Shown piece after piece: positions 6,160 through 33,274 of a DNA stretch of 33,274 nucleotides. The DNA comes from an uncultured beta proteobacterium (GTDB lineage Bacteria > Pseudomonadota > Gammaproteobacteria > Burkholderiales > Burkholderiaceae_C): NCBI GenBank assembly GCA_903896425.1, contig CAITXW010000395.1:1-33274 (forward strand). The letters run 5' to 3'. Each line of letters starts with the position of its first letter. The first letter of the stretch is position 1. The translations under genes and the position numbers were made by a program. The notes under the pieces are model-generated. The model was given only the letters and a program-made list of their open reading frames with translations. It was not told the DNA's origin and searched no databases.

Positions 6160-8256
6160 ATGAATACCCTGCAACAAAAAAATGGCTTTGGTCGTCACAT
6201 TCTTTGGATGCTGATCGCCCTGATCGGAGCCGGCGCGCTGGCGAACATCGCACTGCATCGTGGCGAAACCGTCAATGCGCTGTGGATCGTTGTTGCGGCC
6301 ATCGCGGTATACGTTATCGCTTTCCGTTACTACAGTCTGTTCATCGCCAACCGCGTCTTGTCCCTTGATCCGGAACGAAAGACTCCGGCAGTACGCCACA
6401 ACGATGGTCTGGACTACGTGCCGACCAACAAGTACGTTCTGTTCGGCCATCACTTCGCCGCCATTGCAGGTGCCGGCCCGCTCGTCGGTCCGGTGCTGGC
6501 CGCGCAGATGGGTTACCTGCCGGGCATGTTGTGGATTCTGGCGGGCGTGGTGTTTGCCGGTGCGGTGCAGGACTTCATGGTCCTGTTCATATCGACGCGG
6601 CGTGATGGCCGCTCGCTGGGTGACCTGATCAAGACCGAGCTTGGTGCGGTGCCCGGCGTGATTGCGTTGTTTGGCACCTTCATGATCATGGTCATCATCC
6701 TGGCGGTGCTGGCGCTGATCGTGGTCAAGGCGCTGGCTGACAGCCCCTGGGGTACCTTCACGGTGGCAGCGACGATTCCGCTGGCGATGTTCATGGGCAT
6801 CTACACCCGCTACATCCGTCCAGGTCGAATCGGAGAAGTTTCCATCATTGGCGTCGTGCTACTCATTGCGTCAATCGTTGTCGGTGGTCAGGTGGCGCAA
6901 AGTGCCACCCTGGCGCCGCTGTTCACATTCGACGGCAAACAACTGACATGGATACTGATTGGCTATGGCTTTATCGCCTCGGTGCTGCCGGTGTGGCTGC
7001 TGCTGGCGCCGCGCGATTATTTGTCGACCTTCCTGAAGATCGGCGCCATCGTGGCGCTGGCCGTTGGTATTGCAATGGTTGCGCCTGATCTCAAAATGCC
7101 CTCAACAACACGCTTTCTCGATGGCAGCGGGCCGGTCTGGTCAGGCAGCCTGTTTCCATTCCTGTTTATCACCATTGCCTGCGGGGCGGTCTCTGGTTTC
7201 CATTCCCTGATTTCTTCCGGCACAACACCCAAACTGATCGAGAACGAAGCCCATGCGCGCTTCATTGGCTATGGCGCCATGCTGATGGAATCCTTTGTTG
7301 CCATCATGGCGCTGGTTGCTGCGTCGATCATCGAGCCCGGCGTTTATTTCGCCATGAACAGCCCGGCCGCCCTGATCGGCACTACCGCCGAGAGTGCCGC
7401 CCAGGTGATTTCACAATGGGGCTTTGTTGTGACGCCCGACATGCTTACCGAAACGGCGCGCGACGTGGGAGAAAAAACCATTATTTCGCGCGCCGGCGGT
7501 GCGCCAACACTGGCCGTTGGCATGGCTCAGATCTTCTCGCAGATGCTCGGCGGCAAGGCCATGATGGGCTTCTGGTATCACTTTGCGATCCTGTTCGAGG
7601 CACTCTTCATTCTGACCGCCGTTGACGCCGGAACGCGCGCCGGGCGCTTCATGTTGCAAGATCTGCTTGGCACGTTTGTACCCTCGCTCAAGCGCACCGA
7701 ATCCTGGCTCAGCAACGGGCTGGCGACAACGCTTTGCGTCGCGGCGTGGGGTTACTTTCTGTACCAGGGTGTGGTGGATCCGCTCGGTGGCATCAACACC
7801 CTATGGCCACTTTTTGGCATCTCCAACCAGATGCTCGCCGGCGTTGCCCTGATTTTGGTTACCGTGGTCTTGTTCAAGATGAAACGTGAACGTTTTGCAT
7901 GGGTGTCCTTGCTGCCCACCGCCTGGTTGCTCGCTTGCACCATGACCGCAGGCTGGCAGAAAGTATTTGATGCCAGCCCGAAGATCGGCTTCCTGGCGCA
8001 CGCGGCCAAGTACAAGAGTGCAATGGACCGTGGTGAATTGCTGGCGCCCGCCAAGGTGATGGGTCAAATGCAGCAGATTGTCTTCAACGACTACGTCGAT
8101 GCGACTCTGTGTGCTTTCTTCATGGCGGTTGTGGTGAGTATCTTGGTCTACGGCATCCGTGCCTGCGTGGTGGCCCGGCGCTCGAAACTGCCGACAGCGG
8201 TTGAGGCCGAAACAGAGGCCTGGACCACTGGGCGAGAACAGCTTACTGGCGCATAA
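6160..8256 (+). CDS. cstA: CstA family carbon-starvation transporter
   Basis: 698 residues, close to the ~700 of E. coli CstA. I chose the ATG at 6160 (MNTLQQKNGFGRH) because AGAGGAG lies just upstream; the ORF start at 6124 has no such site. The protein is hydrophobic throughout, with well over a dozen membrane helices. Conserved CstA segments include DYVPTNKYVLFGHHFAAIAGAGPLVGP near the N-terminus, GAVSGFHSLISSGTTPK in the middle and LFGISNQMLAGVAL near the C-terminus. CstA-family members take up peptides and, in several cases, pyruvate when carbon runs short. The small ybdD gene follows 12 bases later, as in E. coli. The divergent Cache-kinase pair is its likely regulator. Substrate (peptide or pyruvate) cannot be told from sequence alone. 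Confidence 0.95.
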   Translation: MNTLQQKNGFGRHILWMLIALIGAGALANIALHRGETVNALWIVVAAIAVYVIAFRYYSLFIANRVLSLDPERKTPAVRHNDGLDYVPTNKYVLFGHHFAAIAGAGPLVGPVLAAQMGYLPGMLWILAGVVFAGAVQDFMVLFISTRRDGRSLGDLIKTELGAVPGVIALFGTFMIMVIILAVLALIVVKALADSPWGTFTVAATIPLAMFMGIYTRYIRPGRIGEVSIIGVVLLIASIVVGGQVAQSATLAPLFTFDGKQLTWILIGYGFIASVLPVWLLLAPRDYLSTFLKIGAIVALAVGIAMVAPDLKMPSTTRFLDGSGPVWSGSLFPFLFITIACGAVSGFHSLISSGTTPKLIENEAHARFIGYGAMLMESFVAIMALVAASIIEPGVYFAMNSPAALIGTTAESAAQVISQWGFVVTPDMLTETARDVGEKTIISRAGGAPTLAVGMAQIFSQMLGGKAMMGFWYHFAILFEALFILTAVDAGTRAGRFMLQDLLGTFVPSLKRTESWLSNGLATTLCVAAWGYFLYQGVVDPLGGINTLWPLFGISNQMLAGVALILVTVVLFKMKRERFAWVSLLPTAWLLACTMTAGWQKVFDASPKIGFLAHAAKYKSAMDRGELLAPAKVMGQMQQIVFNDYVDATLCAFFMAVVVSILVYGIRACVVARRSKLPTAVEAETEAWTTGREQLTGA

Positions 8257-9657: not shown

Positions 9658-10908
9658 TCAGCGCGGGTTGACCAGCCGGTCGCCGACTTTGACGCCGTCT
9701 GTTATTTCGAGAATCAATCCGTAGGACAGCTTCTCGTAGGTACTAAATACCATCAGCAGGCCGTTGCGTTCCTCGGGCAGCATGATCTCGGCGCGCGCCG
9801 GGTCGGTCGGGTCGATCACGCGTTTGCCGCCTTTGAGGATGGCCAGCACGTGGCCGACTTCCATGCCGTCACGCGTGCCGCGGTTGAGGGTGACGACCTG
9901 ATTCTGTCCGGCGATCGCCACGGCATTGCCGTAGATCGAGACGATGCGGGCGTCGACCGCTTTGCCAGGCGCGCGTGGCACATAACTTTGGTAGTTGCGT
10001 GCGGGCTCGGGCAGCAGCCGGTCGCCAACGCGGACTTCTTCCTTTGCCGCCACGATATCGATGGTGGCGGGAACCAGGTCAGTCTGCGTCTTGCCGTCCT
10101 GGCTTGTTGACTGCTGGGTCGATTCGCTGCGCACCAATAGCGCCTTGCCGACATACGGTGCTTCAAAACCCAGCACCTCGCCGGTCAGCGGGTCCATCAG
10201 CGGTTTTGCATCGCGAAACAGGCGAAACGCCTTCTGCGCCTTGGTTGGCTCGTCGATGAGGGCGGCGTCACCTTGGCTGCGCGCGTAAGCGCGGTCGCCA
10301 CGGCTGAGCAGCACACGGCCGTCCTGCGTTGCGACGATGCGCGGCGCCATGCGCAGTCCATTCTCGTCAACCAGCACGGGGCCGGCAAGAAAGGGCTCCA
10401 GCATATGGGCGCTCAAGGTTGGCAAGGCGTCGCTTGGCAAACTTTCCGAGCGCACGCGGGGTGACAGTCGAACGGTACTGATTGCTGCCATGGCGGCGCT
10501 TTCAGCCGCCTCGGCGGGGGTCTGCTTGGTGCTCAGAACGGCGCGCCCGTCCTTTTTTTCGAGGTAAAGCGTTTGTCCCGGGTAAATCAGGTGCGGGTTC
10601 TTGATTTCTTCCAGATTCATGCCCCAGAGTTCGGGCCAGCGCCACGGACTCTTGAGGAACAGCCCCGAGATCGCCCACAGCGTATCGCCGCGTTGAACCG
10701 TGTGCTGGCTGGGTGCGTTGGCCGCGAGTTCGGCCAGGGGCACACCGGCCTGTGCGGTCTTGCTGGCCGTCGCTTGCTGATCCGGTGTTATGGGAAAGTT
10801 TTGGGCCCAGGCAGCGGGGGCCATTGCCAACGTGCAGCTTAAAACTGCCAGCGCAACGCCAAGCGTCCCGGGTGTTCGCTTGAATCTTTCCGTCATTGTG
10901 TTTGTCAT
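9658..10908 (-). CDS. Exported LysM-domain protein
   Basis: 416 residues from the chosen ATG at 10908; the ORF-track start at 10974 is TTG with no ribosome site, and an ATG at 10896 is also possible. A signal peptide is visible (hydrophobic core about 15-30, probable cleavage after AWA at 35). A single LysM domain follows (about 68-117, HTVQRGDTLWAISGLFL to IYPGQTLYL), which would bind peptidoglycan. The remaining ~300 residues contain no domain I recognise but resemble the conserved partner of LysM proteins encoded next to dprA and def in Burkholderiales. Its likely place is the periplasm, attached to the cell wall. The gene is divergent from def and probably co-transcribed with dprA. The exact role is unknown. 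Confidence 0.85.
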   Translation of the reverse strand: MTNTMTERFKRTPGTLGVALAVLSCTLAMAPAAWAQNFPITPDQQATASKTAQAGVPLAELAANAPSQHTVQRGDTLWAISGLFLKSPWRWPELWGMNLEEIKNPHLIYPGQTLYLEKKDGRAVLSTKQTPAEAAESAAMAAISTVRLSPRVRSESLPSDALPTLSAHMLEPFLAGPVLVDENGLRMAPRIVATQDGRVLLSRGDRAYARSQGDAALIDEPTKAQKAFRLFRDAKPLMDPLTGEVLGFEAPYVGKALLVRSESTQQSTSQDGKTQTDLVPATIDIVAAKEEVRVGDRLLPEPARNYQSYVPRAPGKAVDARIVSIYGNAVAIAGQNQVVTLNRGTRDGMEVGHVLAILKGGKRVIDPTDPARAEIMLPEERNGLLMVFSTYEKLSYGLILEITDGVKVGDRLVNPR

Positions 10909-26200: not shown

Positions 26201-26225
26201 AAAGCGCCCCTCACCGGGCGCTTTT
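26201..26225. terminator. Terminator between the small basic protein and the outer-membrane factor gene
   Basis: AAAGCGCCC (26201-26209) and GGGCGCTTT (26216-26224) form a 9-base stem with a 6-base loop and end in TTTT on the plus strand. Because the arms begin with AAA and end with TTT, the reverse strand also ends in a short T-run, so it can serve both convergent genes. Its right arm touches the stop codon of the minus-strand gene. Confidence 0.8.
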
Positions 26226-27627
26226 AGTTTGCGGCGCTCGGCGCGCTCCAGCCGCCGCCCAGCACGCGGTACAGCGTGACCCCGTTCTGCTGGTACTGCG
26301 CCAGCAACTGCACTTGCGCCTGCTGCGCCGCGAACAGCGAGCGCTGGGCATCGAGTGCATCAAGGTAACTGGCCACGCCGTTGCGGTAACGCAGATCGGA
26401 AAGGCGATAGCGGTCCTGCTCGGCGCGCACCACGGCTTGCTGGGCGCGCAACTGCTCACCCAGCGTAGCGCGTCCGGCCAGTGCGTCAGCGACTTCCCGG
26501 AAGGCCGACTGAATGGCACGCTCATATTGCGCCAGCGCGATGTCGCGACCGACTTGCGCTACCTGCAGATTGCCCTGGTTGCGTCCGGCGTCAAAGACCG
26601 GTTGCAGCAACTGCGGCGCAAAACTCCAGCCGCCTGATCCGGCCTTGAACAGGCCGCTCAACTCATTGCTGGCGCTGCCAAGGCTACCGGTCAGCGTGAT
26701 GCGGGGGAAGAAAGCGGCGCGCGCTGCGCCGATGTTGGCATTGGCCGCGATCAGCAGTTGCTCGGCCTGGCGGATGTCGGGTCGGCGCACCAGCAGATCC
26801 GATGGCAGCCCCGTTGCCAACTCGGGCAGCGTGGCAGCGTCGGTGATCGGCACGGCGGCAGGCAACGTGGCGGGCAGTGGCTGGCCCAGCAGCAACACCA
26901 AGGCGTTCTCGTCCAGGGCACGCTGGCGTGTTACCTGGGCGAGTGCGACGCGGGCCGATTCGAGCAAGGACTCGGCCTGGCGCAGATCAATTTGCGAGGC
27001 AGCGCCGTTGTCAAAGCGCAGCTTGATCAGGCGCAGCGAAGTTTCGCGCGTGAGCAGCGTCTCGCGTGTCACGCGCAGCAGTTCCTCGTCGCCCTGCAGC
27101 GCCAGGTAGCTGGTGGCCACAGTGGCAACCAGACTGATCTGCGCCGCCTTGCGCGCTTCTTCGCTGGCCAGGTACTGCGCCAGCGCGGCGTCGCCCAGAC
27201 TGCGCACACGGCCGAAGAGATCGAGTTCGTAGGCTGTTACCAGAACGCCCGCGCTGTAAGTGCTGCTGATGCTGCCAGCGCTGTTCGGCAGGCGCGAGCC
27301 GCTCAGGCCGGCGTTGACCGTGGGCCATTGGTCGGCACGGCGGATGTCGTACTGCGCGCGGGCCTGCTCGATGTTGAGCACAGCGATGCGCAGGTCGCGG
27401 TTGTTAGCCAGCGCCAGCGTGATCAGCGCCTGCAAGCGCGCGTCGCTAAAAAACTGGCGCCACTCGATGGCGCTGGCGGCTGTTCCACCCGCATTCTCGG
27501 ATCCAAAGTTGGCAGCCACCGGTGCGACCGGACGCTGGTAGTCTGGCGCCATGGAGCCGCAGCCGGCCAGTGTCAGCGCCAGTACGGCCGCGCTTGCGCC
27601 TGTGAGTTGTTTGAAGCGCGTGCTCAT
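26224..27627 (-). CDS. RND efflux outer-membrane factor, OprM/NodT family
   Basis: 467 residues. Lipoprotein signal ends in LTLAGC (C23), then SMAPDYQRPVAPV, the typical start of mature OprM-like proteins. Two outer-membrane efflux repeats follow: ALITLALANNRDLRIAVLNIEQARAQYDIRRADQWPTVNAG in the first, LLVRRPDIRQAEQLLIAANANIGAARAAFFPRITL in the second. As a trimer it forms the outer-membrane channel of a tripartite pump. Its ATG overlaps the stop of the AcrB-like gene by four bases (ATGA), so it is the last gene of the acrA-acrB-oprM-type operon. Confidence 0.95.
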   Translation of the reverse strand: MSTRFKQLTGASAAVLALTLAGCGSMAPDYQRPVAPVAANFGSENAGGTAASAIEWRQFFSDARLQALITLALANNRDLRIAVLNIEQARAQYDIRRADQWPTVNAGLSGSRLPNSAGSISSTYSAGVLVTAYELDLFGRVRSLGDAALAQYLASEEARKAAQISLVATVATSYLALQGDEELLRVTRETLLTRETSLRLIKLRFDNGAASQIDLRQAESLLESARVALAQVTRQRALDENALVLLLGQPLPATLPAAVPITDAATLPELATGLPSDLLVRRPDIRQAEQLLIAANANIGAARAAFFPRITLTGSLGSASNELSGLFKAGSGGWSFAPQLLQPVFDAGRNQGNLQVAQVGRDIALAQYERAIQSAFREVADALAGRATLGEQLRAQQAVVRAEQDRYRLSDLRYRNGVASYLDALDAQRSLFAAQQAQVQLLAQYQQNGVTLYRVLGGGWSAPSAAN

Positions 27628-30600
27628 GGCTTGCCCTCCGTCACAGCCGGTGTGGCCGCGCTGTCGATATCGAGTTCGTGGGCGTACTTGAGGCGCTGTC
27701 GCTCACTGCCCTTGAAGATGCGGCGCACAACAACAAAGAACAGCGGCACGAAGAAGACCGACAAAGTGGTCGCGGTGATCATTCCGCCCATCACGCCAGT
27801 GCCGATGGCATGCTGGCTGGCTGAGCCGGCGCCGGAGGCTATCACCAGCGGCAGCACACCCAGGATGAAAGCCATCGAGGTCATCAGGATCGGGCGAAAG
27901 CGCAGGTGCGCGGCTTCGAGCACGGATTCAACCAACCCCTTGCCCTGCGCATGCAGGTCTTTTGCAAACTCAATGATCAGCACCGCGTTCTTGGCTGAGA
28001 GGCCAATGATGGTGATCAGGCCGACCTTGAAGTAGATGTCGTTTTCCAGCCCGCGCAGTCCGGTTGCCAGTGTCACGCCGAGCACGCCCAGTGGCACCAC
28101 CAGAATCACGGCAAAAGGAATTGACCAGCTCTCGTAGAGCGCGGCCAGGCACAGGAACACTGCCAGCAGCGAGAAGGCAAACAGGTAGATCGCGGTCGAG
28201 CCCGAGAGCTTTTCCTCGCGCGACTGCCCCGTCCATTCATAGGCAAAGCCCGGTGGCAACTGGCCGACCAGGCGCTCCATCTCGGCCATTGCGGCACCCG
28301 TGCTTTGTCCCGGTGCCGGCTCGCCGGCGATGCGAATGGTCGGGTAGCCGTTGTAGCGAATGGTCTGCATCGGACCGGTGATCCACTCGGTGCGGGCAAA
28401 GGCCGACAGCGGCACCGGTTGGCCGGCGCTGTTGGGTGCGTTGATCTTGAGCAGGTCTTCGGGCTGCATGCGCGCCCTGGCTTCAGCCTGTACCACCACG
28501 CGCTGCACACGATTGGCGTTCGGGAAGTCGTTGACGTAGGAAGAACCCAGCGCGGTCGAAAGCGAGGTATTGATGGCGCTGAAACTCACACCCAATGCGC
28601 TTGCTTTGTCGCGGTCGATGCTGAGCTGCAATTGCGCGGCATCTTCCAGACCGTCCGGACGCACGGCGGTCAGCAACTTGCTTTGCGCCGCCATGCCGAG
28701 CAACTGGTTGCGCGCCGCCACCAGCGCGTCATGGCCGTTGCCGCCGCGGTCTTGCAAGCGCAAGGCAAAGCCGTTGGCGCGCCCGAGTTCGGGAATCGGT
28801 GGTGGACTGACCGGGAAAATGAAGGCATCACGAATACTGGAGAGCCCACCAAAGGCACGACCCACCAAGCCCTGTGCCGAATGGGCAGCGCCATTGCGTT
28901 CCTTCCAGTCTTTGAGCGTGATGAAGGCCAGCCCCGTGTTCTGGCCGCTGCCGGCAAAGCTGAAGCCCAGGATGCTGACCATGCTCTCGACTTCGGGTTG
29001 CTTGAGTATGAATTCTTCGACGCGGGTCATCACGCCGCCGGTGCGGTTCGCGGTGGCACCCGGTGGCAATTGCACGTTGACCAGGATGTTGCCCTGGTCT
29101 TCGTTGGGCAGGAAGGAGGTCGGCAAGCGGTTGAGCAGCAGGATCACCACGGCGATGATGGCAGCGTACAGCACCAGGAAGCGCCCGGTCTTTTTGAGCA
29201 GCCGCGCAACCCAGCTCTCGTAGCCTTTGGCGGTGGCCGAGAAGCCGCGGTTGAACCAGCCGAAGAAACCGGTCTTGGCGTGGTGGTGCCCGGCCTGGAC
29301 CGGTTTGAGCAAAGTGGCACACAGCGCCGGTGTGAAGGACAGCGCCATGAAGGCCGAGAACAGGATCGAGCTCAGCATCACGACCGAGAACTGGCGGTAG
29401 ATGTTGCCAATCGAGCCCTTGAAAAAGGCCAGCGGCACAAAGACCGACACCAGCACCACGGTGACGCCGATGATGGCGTTGGAGATCTGGTGCATCGCCT
29501 TGCGCGTGGCCTCCAGCGGTGACAAGCCCTCGGTGCTCATGATGCGCTCGACGTTTTCGACCACGACGATGGCGTCATCGACCACGATGCCGATCACCAG
29601 CACCATGCCAAACATGGTTAGTACGTTGATCGAAAAACCAAGCGCCTGCAGCACGGCGAAGGTGCCCATCAGCGCAATCGGCACCACCAGCGTCGGGATC
29701 AGCGTGTAGCGGAAGTCCTGCAGGAACAGGTACATCACGAGGAACACCAGAATCACCGCTTCGATCAGCGTTTCGATCACCTGGCGGATCGAGATCTCCA
29801 CAAAGCGCGAACTGTCAAATGGAATCACTGCAGTCACGCCCGGTGGGAAGTAGGGCGAGAGTTCCTGCAGGCGCTGCTTGATGGCCTTGGCCGTGGCGAC
29901 TGCGTTGCCGGTGGGCGAGAGTTGGACGCCGATGCCGGTCGATGGCTTTCCGTCCAGGCGCGACTGCGTGCTGTAGGACTGCGCGCCGAGTTCGATGCGT
30001 GCCACGTCCTTCAGGCGCACGGTGGAGCCGTCGGCGTTGGCACGCACGACCACTTCACCAAACTCATCGGCCGAGACCAACTGGCCCTTAACGACGACGG
30101 TGGCGAAGATTGCCTGGCCCGGCAGATTCGGCAGGTCGCCGATGGTGCCGGACGCAACCTGCGCGTTTTGTGCGCCGATAGCGGCGATCACGTCATTTGA
30201 CGAGAGACGGTAGCCGACCAACTTGGCCGGGTCGATCCAGATGCGCATGGCGCGCTCGGTGCCGAACAACTGCGCCTGACCAACGCCCGGGATACGCTGG
30301 ATTTCAGGCAGCACGTTGCGCGAGGCGTAGTCGCCCAGCGCCACCGGGTCGATGCGGGGATCGCTCGACGACAGGATGGCAAAGAGCAGGAAGTTCGAGC
30401 GTGCCTTGTCCACCCGCACGCCCTGCTGCGTCACGGCCTGGGGCAGACGCGGTGCGGCGCGACTGAGGCGGTTCTGCACGTCAACCTGCGCCAGATCGGG
30501 GCTGGTGCCAGGCTCGAAGCTCAGCGTGATGGAGCCGGTGCCATCAGCCTGGGCCACCGATTCCATGTAGATCAAACCGGGTGAGCCGTTCATCTCGCGC

Positions 30601-30797
30601 TCGATCACGCCCAGCACACTGTCTTCCAGCGTTTGCGCCGAAGCGCCCGGATAGGCGGCCGAAACGATGATCGAGGGCGGCGCCACCGACGGGTACTGCG
30701 CCACCGGCAACTGCGTCACAGCGACCGCGCCGAACACCACGATGAAGAGGGCAATGACCCAGGCAAAGATGGGCCGGTCGATAAAGAATTGCGCCAT
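27624..30797 (-). CDS. RND multidrug efflux transporter, AcrB/HAE1 family
   Basis: 1057 residues from the ATG at 30797 (MAQFFIDRPIFAWVIAL), the standard AcrB start; the ORF-track start at 31034 adds an out-of-place extension overlapping the acrA-type gene. Twelve membrane helices and two large periplasmic loops are expected. The proton-relay Asp pair is present in GIVVDDAIVVVENVERIM in helix 4 and the Lys in LSAKNAVLIIEFAKDLHAQG in helix 10. PVAQYPSVAPP and GASAQTLEDSV mark the porter domain. It exports hydrophobic or amphiphilic compounds using the proton gradient. Substrates cannot be predicted. The ribosome site overlaps the 10-base gap after the adaptor gene. Confidence 0.96.
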   Translation of the reverse strand: MAQFFIDRPIFAWVIALFIVVFGAVAVTQLPVAQYPSVAPPSIIVSAAYPGASAQTLEDSVLGVIEREMNGSPGLIYMESVAQADGTGSITLSFEPGTSPDLAQVDVQNRLSRAAPRLPQAVTQQGVRVDKARSNFLLFAILSSSDPRIDPVALGDYASRNVLPEIQRIPGVGQAQLFGTERAMRIWIDPAKLVGYRLSSNDVIAAIGAQNAQVASGTIGDLPNLPGQAIFATVVVKGQLVSADEFGEVVVRANADGSTVRLKDVARIELGAQSYSTQSRLDGKPSTGIGVQLSPTGNAVATAKAIKQRLQELSPYFPPGVTAVIPFDSSRFVEISIRQVIETLIEAVILVFLVMYLFLQDFRYTLIPTLVVPIALMGTFAVLQALGFSINVLTMFGMVLVIGIVVDDAIVVVENVERIMSTEGLSPLEATRKAMHQISNAIIGVTVVLVSVFVPLAFFKGSIGNIYRQFSVVMLSSILFSAFMALSFTPALCATLLKPVQAGHHHAKTGFFGWFNRGFSATAKGYESWVARLLKKTGRFLVLYAAIIAVVILLLNRLPTSFLPNEDQGNILVNVQLPPGATANRTGGVMTRVEEFILKQPEVESMVSILGFSFAGSGQNTGLAFITLKDWKERNGAAHSAQGLVGRAFGGLSSIRDAFIFPVSPPPIPELGRANGFALRLQDRGGNGHDALVAARNQLLGMAAQSKLLTAVRPDGLEDAAQLQLSIDRDKASALGVSFSAINTSLSTALGSSYVNDFPNANRVQRVVVQAEARARMQPEDLLKINAPNSAGQPVPLSAFARTEWITGPMQTIRYNGYPTIRIAGEPAPGQSTGAAMAEMERLVGQLPPGFAYEWTGQSREEKLSGSTAIYLFAFSLLAVFLCLAALYESWSIPFAVILVVPLGVLGVTLATGLRGLENDIYFKVGLITIIGLSAKNAVLIIEFAKDLHAQGKGLVESVLEAAHLRFRPILMTSMAFILGVLPLVIASGAGSASQHAIGTGVMGGMITATTLSVFFVPLFFVVVRRIFKGSERQRLKYAHELDIDSAATPAVTEGKP

Positions 30798-30807
30798 GCC
30801 GCGCTCC

Positions 30808-32061
30808 TTATGACCGGGCGGCCGAAGCGGCGGCCGAGGCCGGTGCGGCCGCTGGCGCTGGTGCTGCCGCGCCGGGCGGGCTCCAGGGCACTGGCTTGGC
30901 CCGGGGCGACTTGCCTTGCAGCTTCTGGAAGCCATCGGCGACGACTTGTTCGCCTGGCTGCAAGCCTTCGAGTACCACCCACTGGTCACCCTTGGCTGTG
31001 CCGATCTTGACTGCGCGCGTGCTGACGCTGCCATCGGCTGCGACCACCTTCACACTGTCACCCTGCGCACTGCGCTGCACCGCCTGCTGCGGCAGCAGGA
31101 TGGCTGAGTTGAGGGCGGCCTGTTCCAGTCGGGCACGCACATACATGCCGGGCAGCAGGGCGCCTTTGGGATTGGGCACTTCGGCGCGCAGCGTAATCTG
31201 GCCCGAGCTCGGATCGACCGTCAGGTCGGAGAACAGCAGCTTCGCCGGCAGCGCATACACGCTGCCGTCGTCGAGCACAATGCGCACGGCGGCGGTTGCC
31301 TTGTCGCCGGCGCTCTTGAGTTTGCCGCTGGCAATCGCGGCGCGCAGGCTCAGCACGTCGGCCACCGGCTGCGTGATGTTGACAAACATGGGGTCAATTT
31401 GTTGCACCAGCGCTAGCGGTGTCGCTTCGCCCTGGCCCACCAGTGCGCCTTCGGTAACCAGGGCGCGACCGATGCGTCCGCCGATCGGCGAACTGACGGC
31501 GGCATAACCGACGTTGATCTGAGCGGTCTGCACGGCGGCCTTGCCGATGGCGACATCGGCCTGTGCCTGCTTGTGCGCGGCGACGGCGTTGACGTAATCC
31601 TGCTGGCTGATGGCGTTGGCGTCGAGCAGCGGCTTGTAGCGTTCGGCTTGCGCCTGCGCCTGCATCAGATTCGCTTCGGCGCGTGCCAGCGTTGCTTGTG
31701 CGCTGGCCAGCGTGGCGCGGTAGGGCGCGGCGTCAATCTCGAACAGGGGCTGATCGGCTTTGACTTCGGAGCCTTCGCGGAACAACTGGCGCTGCAAAAT
31801 GCCGGCCACGCGGGCCCGTACCTGGGCCACACGCGAGGCTTCGGTGCGTCCGGGCAGTTCCGTCATCAGCCCGACGCTGCCCTGCGTGACGGTGACGACG
31901 CCGACTTCAACCGGCGGTGGCGCGGCGCCAGCGCCTGCTGCCGGTGGCGCAGCACTTTGGCCGCAACCGGCCAGCATTGCCGCCAATACCGTGCTTGTCA
32001 GCACCCCACGCCGCTGCGCTGACGCACGCAGACCACTCAAGACGTCTTGTCCGATGAACAT
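30808..32061 (-). CDS. RND efflux periplasmic adaptor, AcrA/MexA family
   Basis: 417 residues from the ATG at 32061 with AAAGG upstream; the earlier ORF-track start at 32109 adds residues before a clear lipoprotein signal. The lipobox is AAMLAGC (C33), then an Ala/Pro-rich spacer. The body has the lipoyl half GRTEASRVAQVRARVAGILQRQLFREGSEV, a long coiled-coil hairpin (about 105-175), the second lipoyl half VSSPIGGRIGRALVTEGALV and a beta barrel. A Pro/Ala-rich tail ends the protein. It links the AcrB-type pump to the outer-membrane channel. No TetR- or MarR-type repressor gene lies beside the operon, unlike many acrAB loci; the upstream side instead holds a REPIN-like repeat and a riboswitch-controlled receptor gene. 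Confidence 0.95.
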   Translation of the reverse strand: MFIGQDVLSGLRASAQRRGVLTSTVLAAMLAGCGQSAAPPAAGAGAAPPPVEVGVVTVTQGSVGLMTELPGRTEASRVAQVRARVAGILQRQLFREGSEVKADQPLFEIDAAPYRATLASAQATLARAEANLMQAQAQAERYKPLLDANAISQQDYVNAVAAHKQAQADVAIGKAAVQTAQINVGYAAVSSPIGGRIGRALVTEGALVGQGEATPLALVQQIDPMFVNITQPVADVLSLRAAIASGKLKSAGDKATAAVRIVLDDGSVYALPAKLLFSDLTVDPSSGQITLRAEVPNPKGALLPGMYVRARLEQAALNSAILLPQQAVQRSAQGDSVKVVAADGSVSTRAVKIGTAKGDQWVVLEGLQPGEQVVADGFQKLQGKSPRAKPVPWSPPGAAAPAPAAAPASAAASAARS

Positions 32062-32135
32062 GCACAAACCTTTCGATGAAGCTGACCCGATGCCAAACCG
32101 GGGAAGCAATAGAGCGCACAGTGTAAGCCGTAGCC

Positions 32136-32200
32136 GTAGCCCGTATGAAGCCGTAGGCGTAATACGGGGCAGACGTTGTCCTGTATTTCATACGGGCTAC
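32136..32200. repeat. REPIN-like double palindromic repeat, copy 2
   Basis: The outer arms GTAGCCCGTATG (32136-32147) and CATACGGGCTAC (32189-32200) are identical to those of copy 1 at 16440. The left half folds as CCCGTAT...ATACGGG (32140-32168); the right half is shortened, with only a 3-base loop and one changed arm base (CCTGTAT). Just before it, short AGCCGT units repeat in tandem. It lies between the divergent efflux operon and the TPP-riboswitch transcript. Confidence 0.85.
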
Positions 32201-32216
32201 GCAGCGCGCTTAGAAT
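32187..32216 (+). promoter_or_regulatory. Candidate promoter for the TPP-riboswitch transcript
   Basis: TAGAAT (32211-32216; five of six matches) is preceded at 18 bases by TTCATA (four of six). RNA would begin near 32223, some 25 bases before the riboswitch. The -35 would lie in the right arm of the REPIN-like repeat. The prediction is by eye. Confidence 0.4.
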
Positions 32217-32247
32217 ACGCGCTCTGGCTGCTCAGGCATTCCAGTAA

Positions 32248-32333
32248 ACGCTAGGGGTGCTGGCCGTCGCGAGACGGTTGGCTGAGAAAACACCCTGGAA
32301 CTTGATCAAGGTAATTCTTGCGCAGGGAAGCGT
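32248..32333 (+). promoter_or_regulatory. TPP (thiamine pyrophosphate) riboswitch
   Basis: The aptamer is recognisable by its conserved cores. GGGGTG at 32254 (P2 5' side) pairs with CACCCT at 32291. GGCTGAGA (about 32279-32286) is the pyrimidine-sensing loop, and the GATCAAGGTAAT...GCGCAGGGAAG segment (32304-32330) forms the pyrophosphate-binding half. P1 is ACGCT (32248-32252) with AGCGT (32329-32333). An extra hairpin CCGTC-GCGA-GACGG fills the P3 arm. It ends 67 bases before the receptor ATG. No terminator with a T-run follows, so control is probably at translation (the ribosome site is AAGGAAAC), as is common in proteobacteria. The gene should be turned down when TPP is plentiful. Confidence 0.95.
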
Positions 32334-32400
32334 CGCCAGACCCGGTCCATTTCCATTGGACGTCTTTGGTACCCGCCCTGCCGTCGAACAAGGAAACTCG

Positions 32401-33274
32401 ATGGCGCTCATCCGAAAGCTCACACCGCTGGCCGCAGCATTCGCTGCCCTGGCCAGTATTTCTTCACAGGCACAGACCGTGCCGCAACGCATGGAGACGG
32501 TCACCGTTACGGCGAAAGCGGCGCCGCTGCTTGATGCCGACAACGCCGACGTCGGTGGTTTTGCCGCGCCGCTGGCCAAAACACCGCAAAGTGTTTCCGT
32601 GCTGAGTGCCGATCTGTTGGCTGCCAGTGCCGCGCAGTCTTTGTCGCAAGTGCTCAAGCTCGACGCCTCGCTATCGGACAACTACAACACCACCGGCTAC
32701 ATCGAGAGCGTTTCCGTGCGTGGCTTTCTGCTGGGCCAGAGTGGCAACTACAGCCGCAACGGCCTGGCGATCTCGAACTACGCGCCGCTGGCGCTGGAAA
32801 ACCAGGAGCGCATCGAAGTGCTCAAAGGTGTCTCGGGTCTGCAGTCCGGCGTCTCGGCACCAGGCGGCCGCGTGAACTACGTGACCAAGGTGCCGTTGAA
32901 GGACGACTACACCGCGGTCTCACTCGGCTCCGACAGCAATGGCGCGGCCAAGATTCACCTCGATGCCAGTCGCGTGCTCGGCGGCGTGGGTGTGCGCCTG
33001 AACGTGGTGGACGAACACCTGGATTCACAGTTCGACCAATCCAGCGGCTCGCGCCAGTTGCTCAGCCTGGCACTGGCCACGGCGCTGGGGCGCGACACCT
33101 CGCTCTCAGCCAATTTTGAGTATCAGCGCAAGAGCCAGCCTTCGGTGCCGGGGCTCGGGTTGCTTGACAGCAACGGCGACGGTTTCGGCGATACCTTGCC
33201 CAGCCCGATCAACCCGCGCCTGAACCTGAACAACCAGAGCTGGTCGCAGCCGTTTCAGGTCAGTGCCACAACGG
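32401..33274 (+). CDS. TonB-dependent outer-membrane receptor (5' part), TPP-regulated
   Basis: 291 codons are present; the frame is open at the right edge, which is why the ORF track omits it. The ATG at 32401 follows AAGGAAAC. A signal peptide (about 1-24, ...ASISSQAQ) leads into a probable TonB box METVTVTAK (31-39). The plug domain (about 55-165) has AKTPQSVSVLSADLL, ESVSVRGF, NQERIEVLKGVSGLQSG and APGGRVNYVTKVP, the signature of siderophore-type (FhuA/FhuE-like) receptors; barrel strands begin after that. By sequence alone it would be called an iron-siderophore receptor. The TPP riboswitch upstream argues that its cargo is thiamine, a phosphorylated form or a pyrimidine/thiazole precursor. 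Genes after the window edge would help to decide. Confidence 0.9.
   Translation, partial: MALIRKLTPLAAAFAALASISSQAQTVPQRMETVTVTAKAAPLLDADNADVGGFAAPLAKTPQSVSVLSADLLAASAAQSLSQVLKLDASLSDNYNTTGYIESVSVRGFLLGQSGNYSRNGLAISNYAPLALENQERIEVLKGVSGLQSGVSAPGGRVNYVTKVPLKDDYTAVSLGSDSNGAAKIHLDASRVLGGVGVRLNVVDEHLDSQFDQSSGSRQLLSLALATALGRDTSLSANFEYQRKSQPSVPGLGLLDSNGDGFGDTLPSPINPRLNLNNQSWSQPFQVSATT

Follow-up and report, generated by a model that had tools for sequence, protein, structure and literature searches.

A TPP riboswitch ahead of a siderophore-type TonB-dependent receptor points to a thiamine scavenging operon in an uncultured Burkholderiales bacterium

We analysed a 33,274-nucleotide stretch of DNA (the window), which spans all of contig C395 as far as the contig end, from an uncultured Burkholderiales bacterium. 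At its right-hand end a TPP riboswitch precedes the gene of a TonB-dependent receptor (TBDT). Switch and receptor appear to open an operon that continues with a PnuT-type permease and a kinase, and which together with the chromosomal ThiL would make up a thiamine (vitamin B1) scavenging unit in a thiamine-auxotrophic host. From the sequence comparisons described below we put the probability of this reading at roughly 0.86. The features in the window are:

32187–32216, plus strand: predicted sigma-70-like promoter, TTCATA and TAGAAT separated by 18 nt, from a consensus scan; about 27 nt 5' of the aptamer
32243–32345, plus strand: TPP riboswitch aptamer RF00059 (55.3 bits, E 2.2e-8)
32322–32327, plus strand: GCAGGG in the 3' strand of the aptamer, pairing inside the TPP-bound aptamer or, when TPP is absent, with 32376–32381 (putative anti-sequestor)
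32376–32387, plus strand: CCCTGCCGTCGA, containing the 5' arm of the sequestor hairpin (32380–32387) and overlapping the anti-sequestor target (32376–32381), from alignment identity
32390–32395, plus strand: Shine-Dalgarno sequence AAGGAA in the loop of the sequestor hairpin, from sequence and alignment
32398–32405, plus strand: TCGATGGC, 3' arm of the sequestor hairpin, holding the start codon (32401–32403), from pairing
32401–33274, plus strand: first 291 codons of the TBDT, cut by the contig end (PF07715, 55 bits)

RF00059 is the only Rfam family with a match above its gathering score in the window (54.3 bits for this family, cmscan), and the match covers the full model uncut. No other RF00059 match occurs in the genome (3.55 Mb, 85% complete and fragmented). 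The conserved core of the aptamer (CUGAGA, ACCC, GAUC..GGUAAU..GCGCAGGGAAG) is intact and identical in the 27 leaders that we aligned, with compensatory changes in the P3 stem and, over the whole alignment, at nine pairs (RNAalifold), so that both the core and the stems expected of RF00059 are present. A preliminary description of this DNA had recognized the aptamer cores and stems, and had staked its reading on an Infernal search with RF00059 around 32200–32400; the significant match bears it out. The distance from the switch to the receptor start is about 56–70 nt. The consensus scan gave one promoter compared to 0.1 expected, and the TTAGAATACGC block of the promoter region recurs in the orthologous locus L034.

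Downstream of the aptamer the 27 leaders are variable apart from CCCTGCCGTCGA and from TCGATGGC around the start codon. The mean column identity of CCCTGCCGTCGA is 0.96, compared to 0.51 in the 20 nt just 5' of it. Together the two segments form an 8-pair stem that includes the AUG and has the Shine-Dalgarno sequence in its loop; 95.4% of the alignment cells are paired in this register, versus 13–61% when it is slid, and RNAalifold recovered the stem independently. The alternative pairing of GCAGGG with CCCTGC is complementary in 97.5% of the cells, versus 34–68% with the partner slid. Covariation in the sequestor is slight, with one position changing from G-U to A-U in five leaders, and this line of evidence is limited because the arms are invariant. 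The minimum free energy fold of one leader shows the sequestor stem with a weak z-score (–1.2), and the argument for the sequestor therefore rests on conservation. An intrinsic terminator was also considered; the single candidate is a weak, unconserved 5-pair stem at 32345–32361, and the conserved sequestor was preferred. The anatomy of sequestor and anti-sequestor predicts that translation is OFF upon TPP binding, and the simplest reading suggested by the leader is a translational OFF switch.

Several observations concern the DNA upstream of the leader. A REP-like inverted repeat at 32138–32203 (AGCCCGTATGAA ... TTCATACGGGCT) lies between the promoter and a divergent RND-type efflux operon on the minus strand (26224–32109; membrane fusion protein, pump and outer-membrane factor, recognized by eye from the translations). 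A similar repeat is found in L034, and part of an RND-type efflux operon is also found upstream in L035. RF02836 (Bcj14 sRNA) matches the minus strand of L032 (2783–2955) and L035 (7185–7357), apparently within the efflux gene.

The receptor gene clearly belongs to the siderophore type. Its Plug domain in the window (PF07715) scores 55.0 bits against a Pfam cut-off of 23.9, the barrel (PF00593) encoded on the continuing contig scores 109.6 bits, and a full-length, 88% identical orthologue in L034 reaches 262.3 bits on TIGR01783, “TonB-dependent siderophore receptor” (cut-off 223.5). A structural model (pLDDT 77) has the corresponding fold, and by both sequence and fold the nearest solved receptors are FemA, BauA, the enantio-pyochelin receptor and FhuA. 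The siderophore-type plug signature and the risk of mis-annotation as iron uptake, both noted in the preliminary description, are thus confirmed. Its term “FhuE-like” is too specific, as the FhuE equivalog is one of several weak equivalog matches (71.6 versus a cut-off of 666) and the nearest relatives are the four receptors just named. TonB is present in the genome.

The rest of the operon was supplied by an overlapping contig and by the unbroken contigs of relatives. Contig C396 of the same genome (L069), when reversed, begins inside the receptor gene, and its first 267 bases overlap window positions 33008–33274 with some mismatches. We infer the join from this overlap; the gene order is unbroken in relatives, so it is not likely to be an artefact of assembly. 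The receptor continues at L069 15453–13888 (minus strand), to give a total of 724 residues, and is followed by two genes:

L069 13884–13261, minus strand: PnuT-like permease, 207 aa (PF04973, 164.5 bits)
L069 13264–12734, minus strand: NadR-C-like kinase, 177–179 aa (PF13521, 117.2 bits)

The permease starts 3 bases past the receptor stop, and the kinase gene overlaps the end of the permease gene. A look beyond position 33274 for thiamine salvage or transport genes, as advised in the preliminary description, thus finds a PnuC/PnuT-family permease and then a stand-alone kinase. The same order of TBDT, permease and kinase is seen on the unbroken contigs of relatives, L032–L036, L046, L047, L072, L073, L075 and L076, and the order TBDT–PnuT–kinase is conserved in 13 loci. 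At seven receptor loci (L038–L043, L078) PnuT does not follow directly. The three-gene operon is a feature of the Comamonadaceae, because in the Sphaerotilaceae the switched receptor stands alone, followed by one or two tRNA genes and without pnuT and kinase (L048–L068, about 10050–10420). In genome G053, from another family, the order is pnuT–kinase–[TPP]–TBDT, with a switch of 58 bits and with thiC, thiG and thiE absent. A distant homologous locus in G043 (L092, 5076–9172) has three consecutive genes, for the TBDT, a 403-aa APH-superfamily kinase and PnuT; no RF00059 switch was detected at this locus, and the genome has thiC. It may be a parallel thiamine operon in which an unrelated kinase has replaced the usual one; BLASTP of the L092 protein against E. 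coli ThiK gave no significant match, and we call it APH-superfamily only.

Searches of genome contigs yielded 37 receptor loci in Comamonadaceae and Sphaerotilaceae, at 38–88% identity. RF00059 lies upstream of the receptor in 35 of them, down to about 38% identity; 28 matches are above the gathering score, and seven more have E < 1e-3 directly upstream of the gene. Within the genus the switch is found at the receptor in 13/13 receptor-bearing genomes, with a weak match in G021 (36 bits). In a receptor tree, a check proposed in the preliminary description, 40 receptors spanning both families form one clade (98/95), and 38 carry the switch. The two exceptions among the 37 loci are L053, where the switch is missing, and L035, where the leader is rearranged and interrupted. 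The contig of L053 is binned as Bdellovibrio, although its receptor falls inside the Burkholderiales clade, and this assignment is likely to be a binning error. In L035, which encodes an 85%-identical orthologue, the leader (7700–7945) consists of the 5' half of the aptamer, a second promoter with an aptamer 5' half, inserted hairpin-rich DNA and a normal 3' half; the insert ends in ACGCAC, which matches GTGCGT at the first break. The switch may have decayed, two TPP leaders may have recombined, or the assembly may be chimeric at this place.

Presence of the receptor coincides with loss of thiamine biosynthesis. We compared 37 genomes of the genus, 13 with and 24 without the receptor, using Fisher tests that take no account of relatedness. 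The thiC gene is absent from all 13 receptor-bearing genomes and present in 12 of the 24 others (p 0.002), and thiG and any ThiE/TenI protein are absent from 12/13 (p 7e-4 for thiG and 1e-4 for thiE/tenI). Six of the receptor carriers are 97–99% complete. ThiL, which converts thiamine monophosphate to TPP, is retained in the host genome (309 bits) and in most other carriers. A thiamine pyrophosphokinase (TPK) domain was found in none of 61 genomes, and a thiamine kinase would therefore be needed ahead of ThiL. A cell with no ThiE could not use precursors, so that thiamine itself, or thiamine monophosphate, is the probable cargo. Of the two cargoes offered in the preliminary description, thiamine or a precursor, the former is thus favoured and the latter disfavoured by the 12/13 receptor-bearing genomes without thiC, thiG and thiE.

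The permease combines a Pnu family domain with a thiamine-linked context, the TPP-switched operon, as expected of a PnuT, and it also scores 84 bits on the PnuC equivalog (cut-off 42). In a tree without characterized PnuT references, the operon PnuT proteins lie apart from the PnuC proteins encoded beside NadR. ThiB is found in 0/9 PnuT-bearing genomes compared to 19/28 others of the genus (p 4e-4), which suggests that PnuT and ThiBPQ are alternatives. According to Jaehme 2018, as cited in PMC7749635 and PMC7221760, PnuT proteins move thiamine by facilitated diffusion.

The kinase consists of a kinase domain only (179 aa). Its Pfam matches are AAA_28 (PF13521) and a weak P-loop NTPase; APH, ThiN and TPK domains, as in ThiK, ThiN and TPK, were not found in it. 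The NadR kinase domain is its best relative both in the PDB and in NCBIfam, and an AlphaFold2 model of the protein (pLDDT 91) superimposes on that domain with a TM score of 0.84. The score on bifunctional NadR (TIGR01526) is 84 bits versus a cut-off of 341, and the pairing of NMNAT with kinase is lacking. In many other genomes of the genus, with and without thiC, relatives of the kinase lie downstream of serS or close by, and a TPP switch and thiBPQ come next, either immediately or a few genes later, in the order serS–kinase–[TPP]–thiBPQ (among them L079, L080, L082 and L085; ThiB 313.8 bits, cut-off 93.4). The operon kinases, the thiBPQ-linked kinases and the G053 kinase form one clade (98/84), outside which lie the full-length bifunctional NadR proteins (343–352 aa) encoded beside PnuC in L099, L100, L101 and L107. 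A sister clade to the thiamine-linked kinases comprises stand-alone NadR-C-like kinases that lie beside a probable eno in further genomes of the genus (L090, L091, L103, L104, L105). The kinase is a candidate thiamine kinase because its relatives adjoin thiBPQ and none of the 61 genomes has a TPK. We think it reasonably probable that it represents a family of thiamine kinases that has gone unrecognized and is not related to ThiK, ThiN or TPK, and which would complete salvage together with ThiL in Comamonadaceae, with the outer-membrane receptor, PnuT and ThiBPQ as interchangeable modules around it.

In the proposed pathway, the receptor would bring thiamine across the outer membrane, powered by TonB, and facilitated diffusion through the PnuT-type permease would take it over the inner membrane. 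It would then be trapped as thiamine monophosphate by the stand-alone NadR-C-like P-loop kinase, and from this product the chromosomal ThiL would make TPP. Binding of TPP to the leader aptamer would keep GCAGGG from CCCTGC, upon which the GCCGTCGA/TCGATGGC hairpin would close over the Shine-Dalgarno sequence and the AUG and translation would stop; without TPP, GCAGGG would take CCCTGC and the start site would open. Computation gave us the switch, the order of the genes, the conserved sequestor with its alternative pairing, the co-occurrence with loss of biosynthesis and the retention of ThiL; the cargo, the substrate of the kinase, the direction of regulation and the mechanism of transport are inferred.

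Two annotations tell against a thiamine operon: by profile score the receptor is a siderophore receptor and the permease a PnuC. An iron-siderophore receptor with an incidental or decayed TPP switch would account for the TIGR01783 score of 262 bits, above cut-off, and for the closest folds, those of FemA, BauA and pyochelin-type receptors. We nevertheless consider it very unlikely, as the switch and its expression platform are conserved across the whole clade, no Fur box was found in the window, and the neighbouring genes encode a PnuT-type permease and a kinase, with no siderophore genes among them, so that neither the regulation nor the neighbours of a TIGR01783 iron receptor are seen. Homologues without the switch and with Fur boxes or siderophore neighbours were the finding that the preliminary description had said would overturn it, and with 35/37 homologues switched they are not the rule. 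Uptake of nicotinamide riboside (NR) by PnuC and a NadR-like kinase, placed behind a TPP switch by chance, would suit the PnuC equivalog score and the match of the kinase in fold and sequence to NadR. This explanation is hardly credible: where pnuC is genuine and the order is the same, the neighbour is a full-length bifunctional NadR, the operon kinase lacks the NMNAT domain, and PnuT and kinase each fall into their own clades. NR would also leave unexplained why almost all homologues carry the switch, why thiamine synthesis is lost, why ThiBPQ is excluded and why the kinase is found beside thiBPQ.

The operon could instead take up a thiamine precursor (HMP or thiazole) that the kinase phosphorylates. 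Transporters of HMP and thiazole are also among the targets of TPP switches (PMC3766115), and in G022, which retains ThiG and ThiE and is missing thiC alone, HMP would suffice. This genome, however, is without PnuT and has thiBPQ; in the 12/13 receptor-bearing genomes without ThiE (PF02581), HMP and thiazole could not be joined; and the relatives of the kinase adjoin thiBPQ, a thiamine transporter. We therefore regard precursor uptake as distinctly unlikely and retain thiamine scavenging as the preferred reading. If this is true, three genes that would be annotated automatically as iron uptake and nicotinamide riboside uptake make up a full pathway of vitamin B1 salvage in bacteria unable to make the vitamin, and the predicted diet of many uncultured Burkholderiales, and their dependence on neighbours, would shift. 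It would also point to a missing thiamine kinase, and the riboswitch class over a receptor would provide a clean rule for re-annotating siderophore-type receptors.

Systems with a TPP switch, TBDT and PnuT are already known, both from prediction and from experiments in Bacteroides. Bacteroides thetaiotaomicron has TPP-switched OMthi (BT2390), PnuT (BT2396) and Tnr3 (BT2397), and mutants without the two transporters grow very poorly when thiamine is low (PMC5613172). The operon described here likewise unites a TPP switch, a TonB-dependent receptor, PnuT and a phosphorylating enzyme, but most of its carriers lack thiC, thiG and thiE, and its kinase is a NadR-C-like P-loop protein and not Tnr3/TPK, which is why ThiL would be needed here. 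The preliminary description was right that thiamine-regulated TonB receptors are known from Bacteroidetes, but they are not confined to that group. Siderophore-cluster TBDTs beside PnuT have been predicted to carry thiamine (Mirus 2009, PMC2771747, after Rodionov 2002), as has the TBDT omr1 of SAR86, which occurs with a TPP switch (PMC10881298). These share with our receptor the siderophore type and a thiamine cargo predicted from PnuT linkage or a TPP switch; in the parts of these two papers available to us, a NadR-C-like kinase does not figure in the descriptions. A Variovorax operon with a TBDT-like protein and a TPP switch (PMC10409787) is likewise from Burkholderiales and has a TBDT predicted for thiamine, but there the TBDT lies with biosynthesis genes in a prototroph. 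For Burkholderia and Ralstonia, no transporters under TPP control are listed in the RegPrecise survey (PMC3766115). As regards the kinase, ThiK, ThiM and ThiN are named as signature B1 salvage enzymes (PMC6593275), and in a limited literature search no paper connected a NadR-like kinase with thiamine, which is no proof of novelty. PnuC–NadR salvage has the same succession of a Pnu permease and a NadR-type kinase domain, and our operon differs from it in the absent NMNAT domain, the separate clades, the TPP switch and the thiamine context. The kinase–[TPP]–thiBPQ loci are similar in that a TPP switch and a kinase from this clade lie by a thiamine importer, but the importer of the inner membrane is of the ABC type there, and a TBDT is absent. 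What sets the present operon apart from these systems is the siderophore-type receptor clade of Comamonadaceae and Sphaerotilaceae, the substitution of the NadR-C-like kinase for Tnr3, and the exchange of PnuT and ThiBPQ; of these, the kinase and the exchange appear to be new.
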